Source: Paraburkholderia acidisoli
GTDB lineage: Bacteria > Pseudomonadota > Gammaproteobacteria > Burkholderiales > Burkholderiaceae
Assembly: GCF_009789675.1 (NCBI RefSeq)
Contig: NZ_CP046913.1
Location: 868,001-932,000 of the forward strand
Reading direction: 5' to 3'
DNA: 64,000 nt
Part shown: positions 1,543 through 17,756 of the stretch, in pieces
Layout: every line of letters starts with the position of its first letter
Position numbering within the stretch: the first letter of the stretch is position 1
Program-made: the position numbers and the translations under genes
Notes under the pieces: generated by a model
Seen by the model: only the letters and a program-made list of their open reading frames with translations
Database searches by the model: none
Told to the model about the DNA's origin: nothing

Positions 1543-2274
1543 ATGGCTACTCAAATTCTGGTCGTCGACGACGACCTCGAACTACGCGACCTTCTGCGCG
1601 ACTATCTGGCGCGCCAAGGTATGGAAGTGTCGGTGCTGCACGACGCGGGCTCGCTGGAACGGCGGCTCGAGCGCGAGCGCCCCGACCTGATCGTGCTCGA
1701 CCTGATGATGCCGGGCGTCGACGGCCTCACCGCGCTGCGCAAGCTGCGCGCGTCGGGCGACGACATCCCCGTGATCATGCTGACGGCGCGCGCCGACGAC
1801 GTCGACCGCATCGTCGGCCTCGAACTGGGCGCCGACGACTACCTCGGCAAGCCGTTCAACCCGCGCGAGCTGCTGGCGCGCGTGCAGGCGGTGCTGCGCC
1901 GCCGCCGCACGCTGCCTTCGGCGGCCGCGCCCGAGCAGCGCGAACCGTATTCGTTCGGCCGCTTCACGCTCGACTTCCAGTCGCGCACGCTCCAGCAGGA
2001 AGGCAAGCCCATCATGCTGTCGGGCAGCGAATTCGCGCTCCTGAAGATTTTCGTCAATCACCCCATGCGCACGCTCACGCGCGAGCGGCTGCTCGAACTG
2101 CTGCACGGTCCCGAGTACGACGGCACCGACCGCGGTATCGACGTGCAGGTGTGGCGTCTGCGGCGCATTCTCGAATCCGACCCGTCCACGCCGCGTTTCA
2201 TCCAGACCGTGCGCGGGCGCGGCTATGTCTTCGTGCCCGACGGCGAGCAGGGCAACCATGCGCCGGCCGGTTGA
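1543..2274 (+). CDS. OmpR-family response regulator
   Basis: The 243-residue protein has an N-terminal receiver domain with acidic pocket D10/D11, phosphoacceptor D53, T81 and K103. A C-terminal winged-helix domain follows (about 135-235). The stretch around K-P-F-N-P-R-E-L-L-A-R and the end Y-V-F-V-P-D-G closely resemble E. coli OmpR. The gene overlaps the downstream kinase start by 17 bases, so the two form an operon and are probably translationally coupled. It most likely controls the divergent Spy-like gene and itself. Whether the system answers osmolarity, metal or envelope damage is not visible. Confidence 0.93.
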   Translation: MATQILVVDDDLELRDLLRDYLARQGMEVSVLHDAGSLERRLERERPDLIVLDLMMPGVDGLTALRKLRASGDDIPVIMLTARADDVDRIVGLELGADDYLGKPFNPRELLARVQAVLRRRRTLPSAAAPEQREPYSFGRFTLDFQSRTLQQEGKPIMLSGSEFALLKIFVNHPMRTLTRERLLELLHGPEYDGTDRGIDVQVWRLRRILESDPSTPRFIQTVRGRGYVFVPDGEQGNHAPAG

Positions 2275-3604
2275 TTCGCTGTTCGGGCGGCTGGCGCTGC
2301 TCTTTATCGGCGTTCTGCTGATCTCGCATGTCGCCTGGTTCTCGCTGATCCGGCTCGAACACAACCAGATGCAAACGCGCTACGCGGTCGAGGAAGCCGT
2401 CTTCCTCGTCGACGCCGTGCGTCAGCACATCCAGCGCGAGCCCGACCAGCCGCTGCCCTCGCGCGTGCAACTGGTCGATCCGGCGAACGGCGAGGTGCCG
2501 GTCATGCCGGCCAGGCTGCCCGAACCGCTCGTGCGCTTCATCGAAGACGTGCGCGACCGCATGCCGCCCGGCGCCGACGTGCGCATCGGGCCGCCGGGCC
2601 GTCCGCCCACGCTCTGGGTGCGCGGTCCGCAGGACGCGCGCTGGATCGTCGTGCCGGTGCAGCCGCTGCGTCCCATGCGTCCGCTCGACCGTCTGATCCC
2701 GTGGTTCGTCATCATTTTCTCGGCGGCGCTGATCGCGGCGCTGGTGGCCGCGTGGATGCTGCAACAGCCGCTGCGCCTGCTGGCTCAGGCCGTGGGCCGC
2801 TTCGGCCGCGGCCAGCCGGTGCCGCCGGTGCCCGAGCGCGGGCCGCGCGAGCTGCGCCAGCTCACGCGCGGCTTCAACACCATGGTCACGGAAGTCGAGC
2901 GCACGGAAAAAGACCGCGCGGTCATGCTGGCGGGCGTCGCGCACGATCTCAAAACGCCGCTCGCGCGCCTGCGCCTGCGCGCCGAAATGATGGACGAAGC
3001 GCGCATGCGTGACGGCGTGGTGCGCGACGTCGAGTCGATGGCGCATATCGTCGATCAATTCCTCGTGTTCGCGCACGACGGCGCCGACGGCAGCGAACCG
3101 GTCGACGTCGACGAGCAATGCGCGCGCATCGCACGCAACTATCGGGCGAATCTGGCCACCATGGGCGCCGAGGCCATGGCGATCGAAACCCAGCTGCACG
3201 CGGGCCCGGACTTTCGCTTGCCGGCGGCCACGCTCGAACGCCTCGTGTCGAATCTGCTCGACAACGCCCACGCGTACGGCGCGCCGCCCGTGGTGATCGA
3301 AACCTCGCGGGGCGCGCAGGGCTTCGTGCTCACGGTGCGCGACCACGGCACGGGCATCTCCGACCAGGATCTGGTGCAGGCGAGCCGGCCGTTCGTGCGG
3401 CTCGATCCGGCGCGCGGCGGCAACGGTCATAGCGGGCTCGGGCTCGCCATCGTCGAGCGGCTCGTGCGGCGCGCGGGCGGCGAACTCAAGATCGGCAACG
3501 GCGCGAGCGGCGGTCTGGCCGTGCAGATGACGTTCGCGTTCGACGTGGTCGCGCGCAATATCTCCGAGGCCGCCCAGGTCTGGCAGGCCGCGGGCGCGCA
3601 CTAA
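2258..3604 (+). CDS. EnvZ-like sensor histidine kinase
   Basis: The 448-residue inner-membrane kinase has a TM helix at about 10-30, a proline-rich periplasmic domain of about 115 residues, and a second TM at about 148-168. A HAMP linker follows, then the DHp helix with H229 in A-G-V-A-H-D-L-K-T-P, and an HATPase_c domain with N-L-L-D-N, D-H-G-T-G and G-L-G-L-A boxes. The H-box is very close to EnvZ. The ATG at 2258 is chosen because an upstream in-frame start would lie deep in the regulator gene and lacks conserved sequence. The kinase would phosphorylate the regulator encoded just upstream. The signal is unknown. Confidence 0.92.
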   Translation: MRRPVDSLFGRLALLFIGVLLISHVAWFSLIRLEHNQMQTRYAVEEAVFLVDAVRQHIQREPDQPLPSRVQLVDPANGEVPVMPARLPEPLVRFIEDVRDRMPPGADVRIGPPGRPPTLWVRGPQDARWIVVPVQPLRPMRPLDRLIPWFVIIFSAALIAALVAAWMLQQPLRLLAQAVGRFGRGQPVPPVPERGPRELRQLTRGFNTMVTEVERTEKDRAVMLAGVAHDLKTPLARLRLRAEMMDEARMRDGVVRDVESMAHIVDQFLVFAHDGADGSEPVDVDEQCARIARNYRANLATMGAEAMAIETQLHAGPDFRLPAATLERLVSNLLDNAHAYGAPPVVIETSRGAQGFVLTVRDHGTGISDQDLVQASRPFVRLDPARGGNGHSGLGLAIVERLVRRAGGELKIGNGASGGLAVQMTFAFDVVARNISEAAQVWQAAGAH

Positions 3605-4304: not shown

Positions 4305-5984
4305 TCACCACGTGGGCGCGGCGGCGCGCGGCGGCACGGCGCCCTCGGCCGTCATCGCCTCGCTGCGGTCGCGGCCGCCCGCCTTGGCCATGTAGAGCGC
4401 GAGATCGGCGCGGCTCATGAGGCGTTCGGGTTGATCGTTTTCGGCGGCCAGTTCGGTAATGCCGATGCTCACGCTCAGCGCCGCGTCGGCGGGCAGGTCC
4501 GCGCAGGCGCGCCGCGCCACCTGCTCGCGCAGGCGGTCGATCACGGCGTGGCCCGTGGCGAGCGCGGTGCCGGGCAGCAGAATGCCGAACTCCTCGCCGC
4601 CCAGGCGGCCCACGGCGTCGTCGGCGCGCAGTTCGGCGCGGCAGGTTTCCACGAAATGCTGAAGCGCGCGGTCGCCGGCCGGATGCCCGAAGCGGTCGTT
4701 GATCTGCTTGAAGTAATCGAGATCGGCGATAGCCATGCACAGCGGCTGGTGCGCCGCATAGGCCGTGTCGATCTCGCGGCGCAGCAGGTCGAGAAAGTAA
4801 CGCCGCGAAAGGGCGCCCGTGAGCGCGTCGTGGCGCGCCTCGGCGGCGAGTAGCGCGTTCGCGGCCTGCAACTGTTCGGCGAGGTCGCGGCTCGCGCGGT
4901 GCAGGCGCTTCTCGCGAACCCACGACACCGAAACCACGGCGGCCAGCGCCGCGATGCCTTCGAGCGTCAGAAAAATCAGCAACTGGTCGCGCCGATGATT
5001 CGCCAGCAGTTCGGGCCACGCGTTGAGCGGATCGACGAGATGCGCGGATAGCCCGGAATTGAGGCCGCCGCGCTCCTCGTACAGGGCGGGCCCCTGTTGT
5101 CCCGGCAGATCGACCATGCGCGCGGCTTCGGCGGCGGGCATCCAGGGCGCGTCGCTGGTCGCGGACCGCGCCGCCGAACGCAGCGACAATTCCGAGAAGC
5201 GCTCGCGCAGGTAGGTGTTCACGCGATCCACCGCGTTCATTTCGGCGACGTGCGAGCCGGGCAGCGCGAGCCCTTCGAGCGCGCTGTCGTGGGCCATGAT
5301 GACCACGCCGTTGTTGTCGGCGACGAAGGTGCCCGGATGCGCGACCCAGTGGCGCAGCCGCGCGATGCCGACCTTGGCCACCACGGCGCCGACCAGCAGG
5401 CCGTTGTCGTAGGCGGGCGCGGCCACGAAGATGCCGGGCTCCCCGCTCGCGGTACCGACGCCGTAGTTTTCGGAGAAGGCGCCGAGCAGCGTGTCGTTCA
5501 GATAGGCGCGCGGGCGCATGTCGATGCCCACGTAGGAGATTTTTTCGAGCGCGTTGCTCGAGGCGATGCAGATGCCGTTCGCGTTGACGAGCCAGATGGC
5601 GTCGAGGCCCGAGAAGCCCTGGGCGTCGTGCAGGAAACGGTTGACCGCGGCCAGATCGGGCACGGCCTGCAACGCATTGCGTCGCGCCAGTTCCGTGACG
5701 CCGTGCGACGCGGCATAATCGCCGGCCTCGGTGAGGGCCTGTTGCACGACGCGGGTTTCGGCCATCGTTGCGGGAATGGCGCGCGACATGGCCAGATCGC
5801 TCGCGATCACCTCGGCCATGTTGTCGACGACCGAGCGCGTGATCTGCCGCTGCGCGCCGAGCGCGGCGTTCAGTTCCTGGCGCACCTGGCGGTCGGCGAT
5901 CCAGCCTGCCGCCATCCAGCAGACGAGCGTGACCACCACGACCCCGATGGGTCCGGCTGCCTGACGCAAGAGTCTCCTGTTCAT
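4305..5984 (-). CDS. Membrane diguanylate cyclase with periplasmic sensor
   Basis: The 559-residue protein has TM1 at about residues 10-30, a large periplasmic double-Cache-like sensor region (about 35-310), TM2 at about 325-345, a short coiled coil and a GGDEF domain. The active site G-G-E-E-F is intact at 462-466. An RxxD inhibitory c-di-GMP site (R-A-D-D, 453-456) sits exactly five residues before it, so feedback inhibition is likely. It makes c-di-GMP from GTP in response to an extracytoplasmic ligand not identifiable here. The start at 5984 is preferred because AGAAGG precedes it; a longer frame opens at 6041. Confidence 0.9.
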   Translation of the reverse strand: MNRRLLRQAAGPIGVVVVTLVCWMAAGWIADRQVRQELNAALGAQRQITRSVVDNMAEVIASDLAMSRAIPATMAETRVVQQALTEAGDYAASHGVTELARRNALQAVPDLAAVNRFLHDAQGFSGLDAIWLVNANGICIASSNALEKISYVGIDMRPRAYLNDTLLGAFSENYGVGTASGEPGIFVAAPAYDNGLLVGAVVAKVGIARLRHWVAHPGTFVADNNGVVIMAHDSALEGLALPGSHVAEMNAVDRVNTYLRERFSELSLRSAARSATSDAPWMPAAEAARMVDLPGQQGPALYEERGGLNSGLSAHLVDPLNAWPELLANHRRDQLLIFLTLEGIAALAAVVSVSWVREKRLHRASRDLAEQLQAANALLAAEARHDALTGALSRRYFLDLLRREIDTAYAAHQPLCMAIADLDYFKQINDRFGHPAGDRALQHFVETCRAELRADDAVGRLGGEEFGILLPGTALATGHAVIDRLREQVARRACADLPADAALSVSIGITELAAENDQPERLMSRADLALYMAKAGGRDRSEAMTAEGAVPPRAAAPTW

Positions 5985-6764
5985 CGGCCTTCTGAGTCGA
6001 GAGTGGGCGTTGGGGATGCGCAACGCACGCGCAACGGGCACGCTTCGCCAGCGAATCGCGAAGCCGTGCGCCAGGTAAGGCGCGTGACGATTTTACCCCC
6101 CGAAACGCGCCGGCGATCCTGGCGTTACTGCGGGCGCGCGCCGCGTGGCAAGGCGAAGCGGCGCGCCGCAGGTGCGGCAGGGGAGCGGGTCTGCAAGCGC
6201 TGTGCCGTTTTTACGGGGCCAGGCGGGTTTCGACGGCGTGACACAGTGGGTGTTATAGGCGCGCGCTTAGCTTGGGAATTGTGGCGCGCGCGCGACGCTC
6301 GATGCTGTGATTGGCGGCGGCGTTCGCGCTGGCTTCATCAAGTTGTCACCGATGCGTCACCACGATGACGTGCGCGCGTCCGGTGCAGGCGGTCGTTCGC
6401 GTATGGACGCGCGCTGGCGAGAAAGCCGCCGACAAGCCGTCTCGAAGGCGTCCGAAAGCGGCTAGAAAGCCCGTGTGGCGGGGTTTTCACGGTTTTGCGC
6501 AAGACGGCGCCAGGCGCCCGGCGCGTGGTTGTATCTGTCACGAAGGTTGTAGTAGTGTCGTGCCGTTTTCTTCCAGGGCAATTCTTTCAGGCAAGCCTGC
6601 GGGAGCGGCGGTGGCGTGCGAGCGCCGCTGTCGTGTCATCAACGCCAACGAATTTTCTGTCCATGCGTCTTGCCTTCTCCGCTCCGTGTTTCGCGAGCTT
6701 CGCGGCCTTCGTGCCTCCCGCGCCCCGGCGCTGCAGTGCAGGTTCCCGTGCGGAGCGCGTCTAA
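5985..6764. other. Long intergenic region between divergent genes
   Basis: These 780 bases separate the diguanylate cyclase start from the ABC permease start. No convincing gene is seen: the open frames lack ribosome binding sites and have the composition of random GC-rich frames. A 33-codon frame (ATG 6663, stop 6762-6764) abuts the permease ATG but has no ribosome binding site. The region must hold promoters for both genes. No riboswitch family could be recognised by eye. Confidence 0.6.
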
Positions 6765-9976: not shown

Positions 9977-10534
9977 TTATTGCAGCGTGCCCCAGCGCTC
10001 CACGGCGGGTTCGGCCGTCGCCCATTTCCAGCCCGACTGATCCTGGCACGTGCTCGCCGAGAACCATTGCGAGGGCGAGTCGGGCTTGTCGCCATCCTGC
10101 ACCGAGAACACGAACTCCTTGCACAGCGCGAGCGCCGACGAGAACGCGCGCGTCACACGCACCTCGCCATGGCCGTTCTCGACCGGCAGCGTGTGCTTGA
10201 TGCGCCACGAGTCGGTGCCGCCCACGGGCAGGCGTCCGGCCGTTTCGGCGATCAATTCCTGCTGGTCGGCGTGCATGCTCTTCATGAAGCGAGCGACGGC
10301 TTCGTCGGTGGCGGCCTGCACGGCGATGCCCACGCCGATCCCCACGGCGGGATTGGCCGTGGCGATGCCGGTCGCGGCGGCGGCAGCCGCGCCGCTGGCC
10401 GCGCCGATCGACGAGCAGCCGCTGGTCGCGAACGCGACGCCCGCGCACAGCGCGGCGAGCGCGAGCAGCGTGGGCGCGCGCGAACGCGGCCCGCGCGCGC
10501 GCGGCTCCTGCGGTTCAACCGTGGCGGTGCTCAT
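9977..10534 (-). CDS. Putative lipoprotein, paralogue of upstream neighbour
   Basis: The 185-residue protein has an N-terminal basic stretch, a hydrophobic segment and a lipobox-like T-S-G-C (about 36-39). A Gly/Ala-rich region and a C-terminal domain with W-K-W-A-T-A-E-P-A and R-W-G-T-L-Q follow. The ATG at 10534 overlaps the upstream stop as ATGA, so translation is probably coupled. The neighbouring gene encodes a protein with the same layout and ending, so the pair arose by tandem duplication. No known family was recognised. It is presumably anchored in the envelope; the role is unknown. Confidence 0.82.
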   Translation of the reverse strand: MSTATVEPQEPRARGPRSRAPTLLALAALCAGVAFATSGCSSIGAASGAAAAAATGIATANPAVGIGVGIAVQAATDEAVARFMKSMHADQQELIAETAGRLPVGGTDSWRIKHTLPVENGHGEVRVTRAFSSALALCKEFVFSVQDGDKPDSPSQWFSASTCQDQSGWKWATAEPAVERWGTLQ

Positions 10535-11166
10535 TGCAGGGCGCCCCAGCGCGCGGTGGCGGGTTCGGCCGACGCCCACTTCCACGTTTCGCCGTCGCGG
10601 CACACCGAAGCCACGTAGAACGCGCTCGACGCCGCCTTGTCCTTGGTCGCGTCGTGATCGACGGAGAACACGATTTCCTTGCAGTCGAGCGCGCCCGTGC
10701 TGATCGCGCGGCTCACGGTCACGCGGCCATGCTCGTCGTCCTCGATCTTGAACGAATGCGTGATCGACCACGGCGCGACGGCGCCCACGTCCAGCGGACC
10801 GGCCACTTTGGCGATGCTGTCCTGCGTGTTGGTGTGCACGACGCGCTCGGAGTACTGCACGCCCGCCTTGGCAGCGGCCACGGCGCCGAGGCCGATGCCG
10901 GTGGCGACGGCGGCGTTGCTCGTTACTTTCGAGGCGATGGCGGCACCGCCGATACCGGCCGCCGTTTGCGCGCCTTCGGAGTAGAGCGAGCTACAGGCGG
11001 AACACGCGAGGCTCGCGGCCGCCGCGAGCAGCGTGAGCGACAGCGTGCGTCGTCGGCGCGGTGCTGCGGACGGTTGGGGTGCGGAGAGGGACGGCGTGGC
11101 GATCGTTGCGGCGATCCCGCGCGCCGGCGAAGGCGCACCGGGCGCCCGGGCACTTCGTTCTTGCAT
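10531..11166 (-). CDS. Putative lipoprotein, first of tandem pair
   Basis: The 211-residue protein has a long Ser/Pro/Ala-rich N-terminus (about 40 residues), then R-R-R-R, a hydrophobic segment and a cysteine pair (A-C-S-A-C) that could be a lipobox. The mature part has a Gly/Ala-rich stretch and ends W-K-W-A-S-A-E-P-A with R-W-G-A-L-Q, nearly the same as the downstream gene. The cysteine in L-D-C-K-E-I-V-F is matched in the paralogue by L-C-K-E-F-V-F. The long pre-signal N-terminus is unusual, and an internal start cannot be excluded. The function is unknown. Confidence 0.8.
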   Translation of the reverse strand: MQERSARAPGAPSPARGIAATIATPSLSAPQPSAAPRRRRTLSLTLLAAAASLACSACSSLYSEGAQTAAGIGGAAIASKVTSNAAVATGIGLGAVAAAKAGVQYSERVVHTNTQDSIAKVAGPLDVGAVAPWSITHSFKIEDDEHGRVTVSRAISTGALDCKEIVFSVDHDATKDKAASSAFYVASVCRDGETWKWASAEPATARWGALQ

Positions 11167-11426: not shown

Positions 11427-12692
11427 TCAGGATTCGTCGGGCGTGTCGATGTCGCCGGCGAGGTCCGCACCGGCGTCGCCGAGATCGCCGCTGATTTCGC
11501 CACCTTCGCCGTCGTCGGCGCCGTAGCTGCCGAGCCGGTTATAAAGCGTCTTGAGGCTCACGCCGAGCGTGCGCGCGGCGAGCCGTTTGTCGCCGCCGCA
11601 GTACTTGAGCGTGCCGAGGATGATCTGCTTTTGCGCGTCGGCGAGCGGCGTGCCGATCCAGACGCTCATCGCGTCGCCCTGCGTAACGGGCTTCTTCACC
11701 TTCGGCACGAGCTGCGGATGCGCGATCTCGACCTGCTTCTCCGCGAGGATGAACGCGCGGTACACGGCGTTCTTCAGCTCGCGCACGTTGCCGGGCCACG
11801 ACCAGTTGCGCACGGTTTCGAGCGCGCGCTTGCTGAAGACCTTTTGCGTGCGTTCCTGCGCGTTCAGCTCGTTGAGGAAGTGCTGGGCGAGCATTTCGCG
11901 GTCGCGCTCGCGCTCGCGCAACGGCGGCGCGCGCAGCGGAAACACGGCGAGGCGATACATCAGGTCTTCGCGCAGTGCGTTGTCCTTCACGGCCGTGACG
12001 GGATCGCGATTGGTCGCGGCGATGATGCGCACGTCGCCCTGGATCGCCTGATTGCCGCCCACGGGAAAGTATTCGCCGGTCTCGAGCGCGCGCAGCAGTT
12101 TCACCTGATGCAGCAGCGACATTTCGGTGATTTCGTCGAGAAACAGCGTGCCGCCGCGGGCGTGCTCGAAGTGGCCGTCGCGCGCCTGCACGGCGCCTGT
12201 GAAGCTGCCTTTCTCGTGGCCGAAGAGTTCGGCTTCGATCAGCTCGTCGGGGATCGCGCCGCAGTTCACGGCGACGAACGGCCCGTCGCGGCGCTCGCTG
12301 TGCGCGTGGATGGTGCGGGCGATCAGTTCCTTGCCCGTACCGGATTCGCCGACGATGAGCGCAGTGGCCTCGGTCACGGACACGCGTTCGATCTGCGCAT
12401 ACAAGTCCTGCATGACCACCGACGAACCGTACAGCAAACCGTACGACTCCAGACCGGCGACGCGCACGTCGGCGGGCGGTTTGCCGGCGTTGCCGGATTT
12501 TTTGTTGGCGGCGGGCGAGCCCGGCTCGATTGACGCCATAAGGATTTCGTCCTGCAAAGGTAGTGCGGGCGTGGGGCGCTGCGCGCGGGCGCGCGGCGAC
12601 GGCGAAACGGCCCGGCGATCCGAAGGCTGGCCGTCCAGGACTGGCGCGGACGGTGCCGCGCCGACGGCCGCGAGGTTTTCATCTCGTAACAT
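11427..12692 (-). CDS. Sigma-54 activator lacking a receiver domain
   Basis: The 421-residue protein has a low-complexity N-terminus (about 1-80) with no receiver domain. A full AAA+ domain follows with Walker A G-E-S-G-T-G-K-E (115-122), the sigma-54-contacting G-S-F-T-G-A loop (162-167), and Walker B in T-L-F-L-D-E-I. The protein ends in a Fis-type helix-turn-helix. It can therefore open sigma-54 promoter complexes without phosphorylation control of its own. Such single-chain activators (PspF type) are regulated by partner proteins. The ATG at 12539, preceded by AGGA, is an alternative start that removes the low-complexity region. A second activator gene lies 1 kb away. Confidence 0.9.
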   Translation of the reverse strand: MLRDENLAAVGAAPSAPVLDGQPSDRRAVSPSPRARAQRPTPALPLQDEILMASIEPGSPAANKKSGNAGKPPADVRVAGLESYGLLYGSSVVMQDLYAQIERVSVTEATALIVGESGTGKELIARTIHAHSERRDGPFVAVNCGAIPDELIEAELFGHEKGSFTGAVQARDGHFEHARGGTLFLDEITEMSLLHQVKLLRALETGEYFPVGGNQAIQGDVRIIAATNRDPVTAVKDNALREDLMYRLAVFPLRAPPLRERERDREMLAQHFLNELNAQERTQKVFSKRALETVRNWSWPGNVRELKNAVYRAFILAEKQVEIAHPQLVPKVKKPVTQGDAMSVWIGTPLADAQKQIILGTLKYCGGDKRLAARTLGVSLKTLYNRLGSYGADDGEGGEISGDLGDAGADLAGDIDTPDES

Positions 12693-13026
12693 TTAACCAC
12701 TCTCGCGCATAGGTGAGCAATGGACCCGGGCGGAACGCGCGCGGAAGTTACGCGGCGGCGCGGCATGCGGGGTCAGGTTTCGCGCGCCACGCGGGGGGAA
12801 ATTCTCAGCGCGCACAACGCCTTACCCCTGTATTGCCGCTGCGTCGCGCTGCGAGCCCGAGTCGTCTTCGCTGGCAGTGCAGCAATTTACGGACCCTGGC
12901 ACGCCACGTGCTCCGGAACTCCGACCGGCGCGCGCCGTCACCTTATCAGGGCGGCGCCGCGACGAGGCCTCGTGCGACGCCGTTCGCGTGTTCCCTGTTC
13001 ACGAGGCGCATCTGGGAGAGAACGAC
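12693..13026. other. Intergenic region between divergent genes
   Basis: These 334 bases lie between the sigma-54 activator and a small membrane-protein gene. No credible gene is seen. It holds one strong sigma-54 promoter match (12897-12912) on the plus strand. Confidence 0.6.
12897..12912 (+). promoter_or_regulatory. Candidate sigma-54 promoter (-24/-12)
   Basis: The sequence TGGCACG-CCAC-GTGCT matches the consensus TGGCACG-N4-TTGCW at all but one specified position. The GG and GC dinucleotides have the correct spacing. It points at the small gene at 13027 and lies beside a sigma-54 activator gene. Confidence 0.6.
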
Positions 13027-13323
13027 ATGGCGAAGAACAGCAGCTTGCTAGGAACGTTGTTGAGAATGAGCTTGATCGGCGCGGCCGGCATGCTCGCGTG
13101 GCGTGTGGCGCAGCGCAATCGCATGGGGCAACCCGTGCATCGCGAACTGAGCCGCTGGGAAGGCGAGGGTGGTTCGCTCGTCGAGACCGCCGAAAGCGCG
13201 GCGGCGCGTAGCCGCGACAGCGGCGCCACGAGACGCGGCAATAGCAATGGCAGCGGCGGTGGCATGAACGGCGCGTCGTCGAATGGCGCGGCGGGTTCGC
13301 CGTGGCCGTTTCCGCATAGCTGA
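13027..13323 (+). CDS. Small membrane-anchored protein of unknown function
   Basis: The 98-residue protein starts M-A-K-N-S-S and has one hydrophobic segment (about 8-24, L-L-R-M-S-L-I-G-A-A-G-M-L-A-W). A polar tail follows, rich in Ser, Gly, Asn and Arg, which looks disordered. GGGAGAG precedes the ATG at good distance, so the start is well supported. It lies alone between the two divergent sigma-54 activator genes, behind a sigma-54 promoter match, and is followed by a long hairpin. No family is recognised. It may be a target of one of the activators. Confidence 0.75.
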   Translation: MAKNSSLLGTLLRMSLIGAAGMLAWRVAQRNRMGQPVHRELSRWEGEGGSLVETAESAAARSRDSGATRRGNSNGSGGGMNGASSNGAAGSPWPFPHS

Positions 13324-13681
13324 CCGGCCGGAACCCGCGGTCAGGCAGCACCCGATGAGCGGGCACGCTTCGCGAGAGGCGTGCCCGCTCATCTCGAATA
13401 AGTCTATAATAGTCATATTCACAACAATCGACGTTAGGGCTGCGCGCAGCTGGCGGTATTGTTGCGTTCATCTAGCAAAATCGCGCTTAACCGCGTGCAT
13501 CACGCATGAAAGCGGCCGCCACTCGGGAAGTTCGGTGGCGCGCACCCGACCGTTTCGTACTCCATTGCAGCGCAACTCCTGCGCCGCGACTTTCGCGGTG
13601 CCGGGCGAACCTGTCCGGCGCCGTCGCGAAGGCGCGGCGTGCTTGCGTTGCGGTCATTACCCTCAAGGCTGACGAGACGCG
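13324..13681. other. Intergenic region with hairpin and TATAAT element
   Basis: Of these 358 bases, the first part holds the hairpin at 13354-13393. A perfect TATAAT at 13405-13410 could be a -10 element for the downstream regulator, but no good -35 was found at the right distance. The remainder shows nothing recognisable. Confidence 0.5.
13354..13393. terminator. Perfect 15-bp hairpin
   Basis: Stem 13354-13368 pairs exactly with 13379-13393 around a 10-base loop. No T run follows, so it may be a rho-independent-like stop of low strength, an RNA-stabilising structure or a protein site. Confidence 0.5.
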
Positions 13682-15070
13682 ATGCCACATGTATTGATTG
13701 TCGATGACGACGCAGAGACCCGCGAGGCGCTCGCAGCCGTGGTGGGCGAAGACGGGCTCACCACTGCGCAGGCGGGCGATCTGCGCGAAGCGCGCATCCA
13801 GCTGATCCGGCAAATGCCGGACGTGGTCTTCACCGACCTGAAACTGCCCGACGGCAGCGGCACCGATCTGTTCGAAGATCTCGATCCGCGCTCGGGCGTG
13901 GAACTCGTGGTCATCACGGGACACGCGACGGTGGAAACGGCCGTCGACGCGCTCAAGTCGGGGGCGATCGACTACCTCGTCAAGCCGATCAACCTGCAGC
14001 GCGTGAAGTCGATTCTCAATCGCCTGCCGCGCGCGGGCGACCTCAAGGCCGAAATCGGCACGCTGCGCGGCGAACTGCGCCGCATGGGCCGCTTCGGTCT
14101 CATGCTCGGCAACTCGCCGGCCATGCAGGAGGTGTACGACCAGATCAGCCGCGTGGCGCCCACGCCCGCCTCGGTCATGCTGGTCGGCGAATCGGGCACC
14201 GGCAAGGAAGTGGCCGCGCAGACCATTCACCAGCTGAGCCTGCGTCGCAAGCACGAATTCCTCGCGGTCAACTGCGGTGCGATCTCGCCGAACCTGATCG
14301 AATCGGAAATGTTCGGCCACGAGCGCGGCTCGTTCACGGGCGCCGATCGTCAGCACAAGGGCTATTTCGAGCGCGCGAACGGCGGCACGCTGTTCCTCGA
14401 CGAAATCACCGAAATGCCGATCGAGCTGCAGGTCAAGCTGCTGCGCGTGCTCGAAACCGGCATGTTCATGCGCGTGGGCACGACGAAGGAATTCGAAACC
14501 GACGTGCGTCTGATCGCGGCGACCAACCGCGACCCGGAACAGGCCGTGGCCGAAGGCAAGCTGCGTCTGGACCTGTATCACCGCCTGAACGTGTTCCCGA
14601 TCAACCTGCCGCCGCTGCGCGAGCGCGGCAAGGACGTCGAACTGCTCGCGCAGGCATTCCTCGAAGAGCTGAACGAGCGCCACGGCACGAAGAAGCAGTT
14701 CCCGAACGCCGTGCGCGAGATGCTGGCGGCGTATCCGTGGCCGGGCAACGTGCGCGAGCTGAAGAACTATGTGCAGCGCGCGCACATCATGTCGGGCAAC
14801 GACGGCGATATGACGGCGGCGGTGCCGTTGCAGATTTCGCTCTCGAAGCCGCAGGCGGGCACGGCGGTGACGATTCCGTTCGGCACCTCGCTCGCCGACG
14901 CGGATCGCCAGCTGATTCTCGCGACGCTGGAACAATGCGGCGGCGTGAAGACGCGCGCGGCGGAAATCCTCGGCATCAGCCTGAAGACGCTCTATAACCG
15001 TCTCGTCGAGTACGGCAACGAGAGCGGCGGCAAGGGCGACGCGCCCGCGCGCGCCGCCAGCGGCGCCTGA
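13682..15070 (+). CDS. NtrC-family sigma-54 response regulator
   Basis: The 462-residue protein has a receiver domain (D52 phosphoacceptor, T79, K101) and an AAA+ domain with Walker A G-E-S-G-T-G-K-E (169-176) and G-S-F-T-G-A (216-221). A C-terminal Fis-like helix-turn-helix ends L-K-T-L-Y-N-R-L, the same as in the neighbouring receiver-less activator. It activates sigma-54 RNA polymerase when phosphorylated. No histidine kinase gene is adjacent, so it is an orphan regulator here. Two further sigma-54 promoter matches lie downstream, before a small gene and before otsA. Confidence 0.93.
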   Translation: MPHVLIVDDDAETREALAAVVGEDGLTTAQAGDLREARIQLIRQMPDVVFTDLKLPDGSGTDLFEDLDPRSGVELVVITGHATVETAVDALKSGAIDYLVKPINLQRVKSILNRLPRAGDLKAEIGTLRGELRRMGRFGLMLGNSPAMQEVYDQISRVAPTPASVMLVGESGTGKEVAAQTIHQLSLRRKHEFLAVNCGAISPNLIESEMFGHERGSFTGADRQHKGYFERANGGTLFLDEITEMPIELQVKLLRVLETGMFMRVGTTKEFETDVRLIAATNRDPEQAVAEGKLRLDLYHRLNVFPINLPPLRERGKDVELLAQAFLEELNERHGTKKQFPNAVREMLAAYPWPGNVRELKNYVQRAHIMSGNDGDMTAAVPLQISLSKPQAGTAVTIPFGTSLADADRQLILATLEQCGGVKTRAAEILGISLKTLYNRLVEYGNESGGKGDAPARAASGA

Positions 15071-15130
15071 TGTAACCCGGTAGTCAATCGTGCGCCCGCG
15101 CCATGCGGGCGCGCGCGCCGGCCGCGCAGA

Positions 15131-15146
15131 CGGTACGGCGCTTGCG
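15131..15146 (+). promoter_or_regulatory. Candidate sigma-54 promoter (-24/-12)
   Basis: The sequence CGGTACG-GCGC-TTGCG has the invariant GG and GC at correct spacing, with mismatches to consensus at three less conserved positions. It lies 46 bases before the start codon at 15193. Confidence 0.45.
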
Positions 15147-15192
15147 TTCGATGTTTCGCATCCACCCAGGCCTCACCAGGAAGGAGCGAATC

Positions 15193-15531
15193 ATGACAAG
15201 CCGCAAAATCACCGATCCCTCCCGCACGCAATCCGTTGCCGAGCCTTGGCTCGCGCACACGCCGCAACCCGACGTTCCCCCCGATCAACCCACGCAGCCC
15301 GACGTGCCGCCGGTTGGCGACCCGCCGCCGCAACCCGGCGAAGTGCCGCGTTCGGTGAAGTCGCGCCGCGCCGTCGCGCTGTCTGCGCACACGGCGCCGC
15401 GCAGGCGAGCGCCGAAGCCGGCAACGCCGCGCTCACGCGCTGGGCGCGCTGGATCAGCTGGACGATCGGCACGCGCACTTTGGCGGGCGCGGGCGGTGGC
15501 GTTGGCCGACGCTGACGCGCGCGATGCATGA
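15193..15531 (+). CDS. Small proline-rich protein, possible frameshift
   Basis: The start is set by AAGGAG at 15181-15186. The first about 60 residues are Pro/Asp/Gln-rich with a repeated P-D-V-P-P, and codon third positions are G/C-rich as in neighbouring genes. Beyond about base 15390 this frame turns Arg/Ala-rich and loses G/C third-position bias. The frame beginning with GCC at 15411 keeps the bias and encodes A-L-T-R-W-A-R-W-I-S-W-T-I-G. The gene may thus carry a frameshift, or a sequencing error, near 15357-15411, with the original product ending near 15515. The function is unknown. Confidence 0.55.
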   Translation: MTSRKITDPSRTQSVAEPWLAHTPQPDVPPDQPTQPDVPPVGDPPPQPGEVPRSVKSRRAVALSAHTAPRRRAPKPATPRSRAGRAGSAGRSARALWRARAVALADADARDA

Positions 15532-15648
15532 GTTATGTATGAGTTACAAAATGCGTCGCCATATTTACCGGCAAAACGGCGGCGCACCCCCTAGACTGAC
15601 TAAAAGAATCGCCACCTCGCGTGGCCGCCTTCCGCTGGAGGCATCGAC

Positions 15649-15981
15649 ATGAGACACCCTGCCTTGCGCCGTTCCGCCCGCTACTCGGGCAAGCGCGGTC
15701 CGCGCGATTCGAGCGCCAATCCCAACGCCAATTCGAGCGCGCCGCTGCCGCCCGATCCGCAAGGTCATGCCGAGTCCGCCGGGGCGGCTTTTCAGAACGG
15801 CGGAGCAGGAGCGGTCACGGGCGACGCACGCGGCGAACCGACGTCTTCGGCCTCGGCCGACCCCGCCGCGCAAAATCGCCCGGCGCCCGGCGTGCCGCCC
15901 GATGGCGAGCACAACCAGGGTGGCGCGCGTGCCGAAGGCATCGACTATCAGCGTGATCTGGGGTCGGAACAGGACGCCTGA
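15649..15981 (+). CDS. Small hydrophilic disordered protein
   Basis: The 110-residue protein begins with a short basic stretch (R-H-P-A-L-R-R-S-A-R) and continues Asn/Ser/Gly/Pro/Ala-rich without hydrophobic segments, ending acidic. Third-position G/C bias and a GGAGG ribosome binding site support translation. Upstream, an 11-bp direct repeat (ATGAGTTA-containing units at 15528-15538 and 15539-15549) may be a regulator site. No family is recognised. Composition resembles stress-linked hydrophilic proteins, but this is only an impression. Confidence 0.7.
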   Translation: MRHPALRRSARYSGKRGPRDSSANPNANSSAPLPPDPQGHAESAGAAFQNGGAGAVTGDARGEPTSSASADPAAQNRPAPGVPPDGEHNQGGARAEGIDYQRDLGSEQDA

Positions 15982-16198
15982 TTGTTGCGTTGCGGCATGC
16001 CGGACTTGCGACCAGTTTCGTCGACGATTTCCGCGGTGCGTCATATGCCGATTTCGGCGCTGAAATCGCGCGGCGAATGCGGACCGGGAAGCGCCTCGAA
16101 AAGGATCAAAAAGCTTTTCCGCACAGCGCGGCCGTGAGCGCAAATTTCGCTCGCGCCACCCGTTTGCGGAAAATGTTTTTGCTTTGGCCCCGGTTTAC

Positions 16199-16214
16199 CG
16201 GCACGGGTCTTGCA
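16199..16214 (+). promoter_or_regulatory. Candidate sigma-54 promoter of otsA
   Basis: The sequence CGGCACG-GGTC-TTGCA matches the sigma-54 consensus at every position but the first, with exact -24/-12 spacing. It lies 55 bases before the otsA start and its aggaggt ribosome binding site. Confidence 0.65.
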
Positions 16215-16268
16215 TGCATGTTTTCATGCATCGTCATCGGACCCACCGAAACAGGAGGTATAGCCGCA

Positions 16269-17756
16269 ATGGGCAGACTGATCGTGGTATCGAATCGCGT
16301 AGCGCCGACGCAGGAAGGCCGTCCCGCAGCCGGGGGCCTCGCAGTCGGCGTGCTGGACGCGCTCAAGGAAACAGGCGGTGTGTGGTTCGGCTGGAGCGGC
16401 GAAACCGTCGCGGAACCGGCCGAAGCGGTCATCGAGCAACAGGGCAGCGTCACTTACGCGACCGTCGGTCTGACCAAGCGTGACTATGACCAGTACTACA
16501 AGGGCTTCTCGAACACGACGCTCTGGCCGACGTTCCACTACCGGAACGATCTCGCGCGCTACGAGCGTCAGGAGTACGGCGGTTATCTGCGGGTGAACGT
16601 GACGCTCGCGCGCCAGCTTCAGCCGTTGATCGAGCCCGACGACATCATCTGGATTCACGACTATCACCTGATTCCGTTCGCGCGCTGCCTGCGCGACCTC
16701 GGCGTGAAGAATCCCATCGGCTTCTTCCTGCACATTCCGTTGCCCGTGCCGGAAGTCATGCGCTCGATTCCGCCGCACGAAGAGCTGATGAAGTTCCTGT
16801 GCCATTACGACGTGGTGGGCTTCCAGACCGACGCCGACCGCCAGGCGTTCCTCGACTACATCGAGCGCGGCGGCCACGGCCAGTCGAGCGAGGACGGCAT
16901 GGTCCACGCGTGGGATCGCTTCCTCAAGGTGGGCGCGTATCCGATCGGCATCTATCCGGACGCGATCGCGAAATCGGCGTCGCAGTTCACGGACCGCAAG
17001 CCCGTGCGCAGCCTGCGCGACGCCATGCGCGGCCGCAAGCTCATCATGAGCGTCGATCGTCTCGATTACTCGAAGGGTCTCGCCGAGCGCTTCCAGGCGT
17101 TCGAGCGGCTGCTGCAAAACGGCCCGGGCTGGCACGGCCGCGTCTCGCTGCTGCAGATCGCGCCGCCGACGCGCTCCGACGTGCAGACCTATCAGACGAT
17201 TCGCCGCAATCTCGAAGGCGAGGCGGGCCGCATCAACGGTCGATTCGCGCAACTCGACTGGACGCCTATTCAGTATCTCAACCGCAAATACGAGCGCAAT
17301 CTGCTGATGGCGTTGTTCCGTCAGGCGCAGGTGGGCTATGTCGCGCCGTTGCGCGACGGCATGAACCTCGTGGCCAAGGAATACGTGGCGTCGCAGAACC
17401 CCGAGGATCCGGGCGTGCTGGTGCTGTCGCAGTTCGCGGGCGCGGCGGAGCAGTTGCCGGGCGCGCTGGTCGTGAATCCGTACGACCTGAACCAGACGGC
17501 CGAAGCGCTCGAACGTGCGCTCTCGATGCCGCACGCCGAGCGGGTCTCGCGCTACAACGACATGATGGCGCAGTTGCGCGAGAACAATCTTTCGGTGTGG
17601 CGCGATACGTTCCTCGCCGATCTGCGCAGCGTGGCCACCGCGGCTTCGGTCACGGCGAAGGCGCGCAGCACGCCGGCAACGGTGGCATCGGCGAAACCTG
17701 CCGCGCCGGCCCAGTCTGCACCGGCGCCGAAGCGCGAGGCGCGCGGCACACTGTAA
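16269..17756 (+). CDS. otsA: Alpha,alpha-trehalose-6-phosphate synthase
   Basis: The 495-residue GT20 glycosyltransferase transfers glucose from UDP-glucose to glucose-6-phosphate to make trehalose-6-phosphate. The N-terminal V-V-S-N-R and G-G-L loop, W-I-H-D-Y-H-L, S-V-D-R-L-D-Y-S-K-G and D-G-M-N-L-V-A-K-E-Y motifs of the family are all present. A tail of about 40 residues rich in Ala/Pro/Thr follows the catalytic part. The ATG at 16269 has a strong AGGAGGT ribosome binding site. No trehalose-6-phosphate phosphatase (otsB) is encoded nearby. A near-perfect sigma-54 promoter lies upstream, an unusual control for this osmoprotectant enzyme. Confidence 0.95.
   Translation: MGRLIVVSNRVAPTQEGRPAAGGLAVGVLDALKETGGVWFGWSGETVAEPAEAVIEQQGSVTYATVGLTKRDYDQYYKGFSNTTLWPTFHYRNDLARYERQEYGGYLRVNVTLARQLQPLIEPDDIIWIHDYHLIPFARCLRDLGVKNPIGFFLHIPLPVPEVMRSIPPHEELMKFLCHYDVVGFQTDADRQAFLDYIERGGHGQSSEDGMVHAWDRFLKVGAYPIGIYPDAIAKSASQFTDRKPVRSLRDAMRGRKLIMSVDRLDYSKGLAERFQAFERLLQNGPGWHGRVSLLQIAPPTRSDVQTYQTIRRNLEGEAGRINGRFAQLDWTPIQYLNRKYERNLLMALFRQAQVGYVAPLRDGMNLVAKEYVASQNPEDPGVLVLSQFAGAAEQLPGALVVNPYDLNQTAEALERALSMPHAERVSRYNDMMAQLRENNLSVWRDTFLADLRSVATAASVTAKARSTPATVASAKPAAPAQSAPAPKREARGTL

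Follow-up and report, generated by a model that had tools for sequence, protein, structure and literature searches.

Does sigma-54 control trehalose synthesis in Paraburkholderia? The functions commonly associated with sigma-54 are nitrogen metabolism, flagella and certain catabolic or envelope processes, and in Escherichia coli otsA belongs, with osmY, osmB, elaB and katE, to the RpoS stress regulon. The question is raised by a block of genes in a 64-kb stretch of the Paraburkholderia acidisoli genome (7.9 Mb, five contigs; the stretch, C1:868001-932000, is hereafter called the window), in which a divergent pair of sigma-54 activators, EBP1 and EBP2, lies close to three sigma-54-like promoter sequences and to otsA, the gene for trehalose-6-phosphate synthase. 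The block runs from a lipoprotein-like gene pair and EBP1, all on the minus strand, through smallTM, EBP2, proX, proY and otsA on the plus strand to a minus-strand gene that looks transporter-like. A first-pass annotation of this DNA had proposed that the block is a possible sigma-54 regulon that includes otsA and may respond to osmotic or envelope stress. The regulon is supported by conserved promoters and a conserved activator pair, and we conclude that a sigma-54-dependent stress regulon probably has its core in this block.

To score matches to the sigma-54 -24/-12 consensus (TGGCACGNNNNTTGCW), we used the pattern GG-N10-GC and counted mismatches out of 12 consensus positions. The three sequences singled out in the first-pass annotation all lie where it had placed them and have the exact sigma-54 spacing: site 1 (TGGCACGCCACGTGCT, 12897-12912, plus strand) lies before smallTM and has 1 mismatch, site 2 (CGGTACGGCGCTTGCG, 15131-15146, plus strand) lies before proX and has 3 mismatches, and site 3 (CGGCACGGGTCTTGCA, 16199-16214, plus strand) lies before otsA and has 1 mismatch. 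All are intergenic and on the right strand, ~114, 46 and 54 bases before their respective genes, as had been claimed, with the small correction that two small open reading frames (ORFs), proX and proY, separate EBP2 from otsA. At a threshold of 3 mismatches, proY has no sigma-54 site of its own. Scanning both strands of the window for GG-N10-GC with a T before the GC gave 24 places with ≤3 mismatches, only two of which, sites 1 and 3, had ≤1 mismatch. Sites 1 and 3 thus stand out alone, whereas site 2, as one of the 24 and alone of such quality among the three, does not. Numbers of this kind are what chance matches in a GC-rich genome might also produce, and we assessed that explanation by conservation.

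The corresponding region was taken from 60 of 117 genomes of the same genus (G001 to G060), in 58 of which otsA was in reach; in the other two loci (L132 and L150) it was not in the stretch. A site 60 to 90 bases before otsA was found in 58/58 loci at ≤4 mismatches, in 52 at 3, in 44 at 2 and in 25 at 1, against 3.3%, 1.1%, 0.2% and 0.04%, respectively, in resampled sequences; at four other offsets, 1, 1, 2 and 0 of the 58 loci had a site with ≤4 mismatches. Among named Paraburkholderia and Caballeronia orthologs, the otsA site was present in 8/8 at 4 mismatches and in 6/8 at 2 (L033 and L039 need 4). Other otsA loci, those with ≤66% identity, had a site in 0/71 cases at 3 mismatches and in 4/71 at 4. 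Site 2 was rescued by its conservation, because 52/60 loci had a site with ≤3 mismatches ≤400 bases from the EBP2 stop codon (control, 3.6%). The gap between EBP1 and EBP2 (~1.2 kb) contained a site with ≤3 mismatches in 47/60 loci (control, 16%), so that site 1 has the weakest control of the three, a point in favor of chance. For sites 2 and 3, however, the resampled controls in effect refute chance matches, and with the other offsets and the other otsA loci also speaking against it, we rejected this explanation as having only a negligible probability. All three sites are therefore conserved in relatives, which the first-pass annotation had made a check on its own proposal, and the promoters are very probably real.

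What site 1 precedes differs among relatives. In the eight loci read in detail, the site lies directly before smallTM in the window and in L159, L116 and L147, and an ElaB/DUF883-like gene lies before smallTM in L151, L120, L155 and L137; the site precedes this gene in the first three, and none was found at 3 mismatches in L137. The ElaB-like protein passed the Pfam cut-off for DUF883, and its NCBIfam ElaB match (E value, 1.2e-10) was below cut-off. A search of the P. acidisoli genome for a copy of this gene elsewhere found only relatives with 31% and 35% identity. At site 2, the ORF that follows the proX-type site encodes a P-x-GDPP motif in 8/8 loci read.

Many same-genus loci (L115, L117 to L122 and others) also have a conserved AT-rich block near GTCACATTTGCATACATTTTTATT, 20 to 60 bases before the otsA -24 element, which does not occur in the window's own clade. 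Such a block could serve another promoter or regulator, and an earlier report, as cited in the available text of a study of Burkholderia pseudomallei (PMC4745423), linked KatE activity to RpoS. It is conceivable on these grounds that sigma-54 binds the otsA promoter in a minor or repressive role and that most otsA transcription starts at a different promoter, of the housekeeping, RpoS or ECF type. We consider this quite improbable: the -24/-12 elements are what all 58 loci have retained, even where the AT-rich block is missing.

Sigma-54 promoters need an activator, and the first-pass annotation had pointed to two within the block, one with a receiver and one without. Both were confirmed. EBP1 (11427-12539, minus strand) has no sensor domain and consists of the Pfam domains Sigma54_activat, AAA lid and HTH_8, that is, an AAA+ domain and a Fis-type helix-turn-helix. 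On the plus strand, EBP2 (13682-15070) adds a Response_reg receiver to the same domain set and is an NtrC-type response regulator. The C-terminal motifs had been called identical; this holds for SLKTLYNRL, and the flanking residues are nearly so (LGV versus LGI). The extent first given for EBP1 (11427 to 12692) should probably be shortened, with 12539 the likelier start on the codon score and the short N termini of orthologs; a start at 12692 would add 51 unconserved residues.

The features that define a sigma-54 activator, an AAA+ domain with Walker A, Walker B and a GxFTGA loop together with a helix-turn-helix, are found in both proteins. Across the 60 same-genus loci, Walker A is intact in 60/60 for each protein, and Walker B is intact in 60/60 for EBP2 and 59/60 for EBP1. 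The sigma-54 contact loop, whose usual form is GAFTGA, reads GSFTGA in both proteins of the window; among the loci (L115 to L174), EBP2 has GSFTGA in 52/60 and GAFTGA in 8/60, and EBP1 has GSFTGA in 58/60 and no match in 2. The aspartate stretch of the EBP2 receiver is kept in 60/60. The domain order of EBP2 is that of NtrC-type activators, and EBP1 resembles PspF-type activators in having no sensor domain; both differ from the named NtrC-kind regulators and PspF, as NCBIfam defines them, in falling below cut-off for each of the best 25 models listed per protein. The closest solved chain by sequence belongs to an NtrC-family regulator (4l4u).

The activator pair is conserved as well. An EBP2 ortholog is present in 116/117 same-genus genomes, including that of P. 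acidisoli itself. The search gave a match in 116/117 genomes, with two qualifications: the sole match in G070, an assembly that is 84% complete and in 610 contigs, is 50% identical and not an ortholog, and G080, which gave no match, has an EBP2 truncated where its contig stops (95% identity across residues 273 to 457). G080 is void as a test of co-loss, with the contig ending inside EBP2 and the proX and otsA sites both present. Four genomes (G095, G107, G001 and G012) carry extra EBP2 copies with 77 to 91% identity, either on the contig of the first copy or on a different one. EBP1 lies divergently beside EBP2 in 60/60 same-genus loci.

The divergent pair was also found in 20/20 loci from ten other genera (we refer to these groups by g labels; genus names for them are guesses from similarity). 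In 14 of these loci (g10, g25, g14, g16, g17, g8 and g7), the stretch included otsA in 12, of which 9 had a site with ≤2 mismatches shortly before the gene. In the remaining six (g24, g18 and g3), otsA was not in the stretch, and the small genes that follow instead look by eye DUF1328-, DUF883-, BON- and PRC-barrel-like; a site lay somewhere downstream of EBP2 in 6/6. A different arrangement was seen in g12, which we take as Burkholderia proper because L038 (Burkholderia pseudomultivorans) behaves alike. In the 31 Burkholderia-like loci sampled (the best 30 of g12 plus L038), proY-otsA remains beside the lipoprotein pair and the activators are not there. Five of these loci have a site with ≤2 mismatches before otsA, at -75 to -79, and the other 26/31 have none; in four of the 26, a sequence with 3 mismatches lies at -47 to -50. 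Where the pair is absent, then, the site is mostly absent too, with five exceptions. An EBP2 copy, 60 to 62% identical, lies elsewhere in the three g12 genomes searched, with a divergent EBP1-like gene beside it in L258 and L260. In a tree, subject to a long-branch warning, this ~61% identical Burkholderia-like copy clusters with the copies from g11 and not with the group that contains the window.

We asked how far the proposed regulon extends in the P. acidisoli genome. The pattern NGGCAYRNNNNTTGCW had 52 matches, against 22 for the reversed pattern; 45 of the 52 were intergenic by a crude codon-based gene model, and 11 lay ~39 to 56 bases before a called start codon. By eye, the matches include PII-protein, urease-subunit and nitrite-reductase-like genes, as expected for sigma-54, and looser matches include a glutamine synthetase gene. 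Others precede genes for BON-domain (OsmY-like), glycine-zipper, PRC-barrel, DUF3096, DUF1328 and Ysc84-domain proteins, a proX-like proline-rich ORF and a glgC-like gene. The genome has two rpoN genes, and one match points into rpoN2, divergently from a BON gene. This rpoN2 site was found with ≤2 mismatches in 27/27 loci in which rpoN2 was found (29 loci taken). Upstream of it, many loci (L281 to L306) have repeated TTGTAAAAA-like elements, possible activator sites; none was seen by eye before the window promoters. The BON site was present at -52 to -60 in 7/7 loci from the clade of the window, the PRC-barrel site in 18/23 loci at 3 mismatches within 330 bases (both counted by the mismatch rule alone, without a resampled control), and a KatE-type gene (L338, KatE by size) had CGGCACAACGTTTGCG, a 3-mismatch sequence, 56 bases ahead of its probable start; it is one of six catalase-like genes. 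A wider regulon is suggested by these further sites (before OsmY-like, glycine-zipper, PRC-barrel, Ysc84, DUF1328, DUF3096, KatE-type and rpoN2 genes), and its predicted content overlaps that of the E. coli RpoS regulon; it differs in its sigma-54-type promoters, for which an activator that uses ATP is required.

A number of findings weigh against a stress regulon driven by the local pair. Three of the 12 other-genus otsA loci have no site at 2 mismatches (L178, L183 and L188), and the five Burkholderia-like loci that keep the site without adjoining activators (L195, L196, L198, L199 and L222) mean that the site and the local pair are not strictly linked. For the BON site, the case is firm in the clade of the window only; in the other 22 loci it was found at 3 mismatches within 200 bases in 11 and not at all in 11. 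Five of the 23 PRC-barrel loci have no site, and just 1/6 catalase-like genes has one. The main text of a P. phymatum rpoN nodule study (PMC5979394), in the form available, does not contain the words "trehalose," "otsA" or "osmotic." Finally, no clear upstream activator site common to 20 own-genome promoters emerged when dyads and 6- to 8-mers were compared with shuffles: the best dyad, GCGC-N7-GCGC, occurred in 7/20 promoters (shuffle maximum, 6) and the best 6-mer in 16/20 (shuffle maximum, 15), and both are GC rich. Neither was clearly above the shuffles.

The missing common site and the five Burkholderia-like exceptions favor an alternative in which the promoters are real and another activator of this genome drives them, with EBP1 and EBP2 acting elsewhere as mere neighbors. 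We regard this as unlikely. The divergent pair lies beside such promoters in 60/60 same-genus loci and in 20/20 loci from ten other genera, even those in which the stretch has other genes and no otsA. We infer, with modest confidence, that EBP1 and EBP2 drive these promoters. The sigma factor itself could be mainly RpoN2, although on balance we lean slightly away from this, and the signal is likely to be osmotic or stationary-phase stress. The readings of the promoters are supported; those of the activators and the signal are plausible.

Published work on related bacteria bears on these points. According to the available text on B. pseudomallei, expression of katE is lost in an rpoN2 mutant, and an RpoN box precedes the gene (PMC4745423). 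The likeness lies in a second RpoN copy and a stress-type target with an RpoN box, as at the KatE-sized gene with a site here; the difference is that the available text names no activator and mentions neither trehalose nor osmotic stress. In Caballeronia insecticola, according to the accessible portion of the report, symbiotic cells express one of three otsA paralogs at a 12-fold higher level, osmotic stress raises the expression of trehalose genes, and the mutant is sensitive to osmotic stress (PMC10100943). BRPE64_ACDS08420 is the presumed ortholog of the window otsA. The Caballeronia orthologs L036 and L037 have the sigma-54 site, but no promoter is described in that portion of the report. 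The stress role that the first-pass annotation had suggested gains support from gene content, in the block and in the rest of the genome, and from this published osmotic induction of Caballeronia otsA. A 2025 survey of sigma-54 regulons (PMC12316311) does not contain "Burkholderi," "trehalose" or "otsA" in its available text. In titles and abstract beginnings of the openly licensed literature, among the matches listed, we recognized no report that otsA is controlled by sigma-54 in this family, which is not proof of absence.

A working model can be put together from these elements. The conserved promoters would serve smallTM, proX-proY and otsA and, in many relatives, the ElaB-like gene together with smallTM. 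Sigma-54 RNA polymerase, perhaps with RpoN2, would wait at these promoters until an unlinked kinase phosphorylates EBP2. EBP2 and the sensorless EBP1 would then hydrolyze ATP and open the promoters under osmotic, stationary-phase or envelope stress; EBP1 may be constitutively active or may assemble into mixed rings with EBP2. OtsA would feed trehalose synthesis, and the small proteins may act at the envelope.

The remaining features of the locus are as follows. OtsA (16269-17756, plus strand) belongs to Pfam GT20 and passed NCBIfam TIGR02400 (trehalose_OtsA) with 599 bits against a cut-off of 564.85; it is 94% identical to OtsA of Paraburkholderia nodosa and P. tagetis. smallTM (13027-13323, plus strand) encodes a small protein with one putative membrane stretch, judged by eye; proX (15193-15531, plus strand) is a proline-rich ORF; and proY (15649-15981, plus strand) is a small hydrophilic ORF with a conserved C terminus. 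A Pfam scan at an E value of 0.1 matched none of these three to a family. A perfect 8-base inverted repeat 3' of EBP2 (15092-15112, plus strand), read by eye, is a putative terminator. The two lipoprotein-like genes (9977-10534 and 10531-11166, minus strand) are mutually related and have no firm Pfam family. By Pfam, no histidine kinase was among the scanned proteins adjoining EBP2; the one at 2258-3604 follows its own response regulator (1543-2274). This plus-strand pair (1543-3604), which is perhaps a CpxRA-like envelope system, adjoins a minus-strand gene (739-1314) with a Metal_resist/LTXXQ domain. Another sequence of the sigma-54 type, CGGCACAGCGCTTGCA (6192-6207, minus strand; 2 mismatches), lies upstream of a minus-strand gene (4305-5939) for a protein with a GGDEF domain and a weak dCache match.

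We read the whole as a probable sigma-54 regulon with RpoS-like content. Taken together, the comparisons suggest that Paraburkholderia and its close relatives put part of their osmotic and general stress defense under sigma-54. A tentative extension, which we hold to be possible but rather doubtful, is that the general stress response rests on sigma-54, with RpoN2 (which has a candidate site on its own promoter) and the dedicated divergent pair controlling trehalose synthesis and a set of envelope and stationary-phase genes that RpoS governs in E. coli; ATP-driven activators would then gate entry into stress defense. If the regulon is as proposed, a stress regulon would be carried in these bacteria by another promoter type. 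With trehalose and osmotic-type genes under a conserved sigma-54 circuit, the second RpoN copy would have a concrete job, it would be explained which otsA paralog responds to osmotic stress, and direct predictions would follow for plant- and insect-associated laboratory strains.

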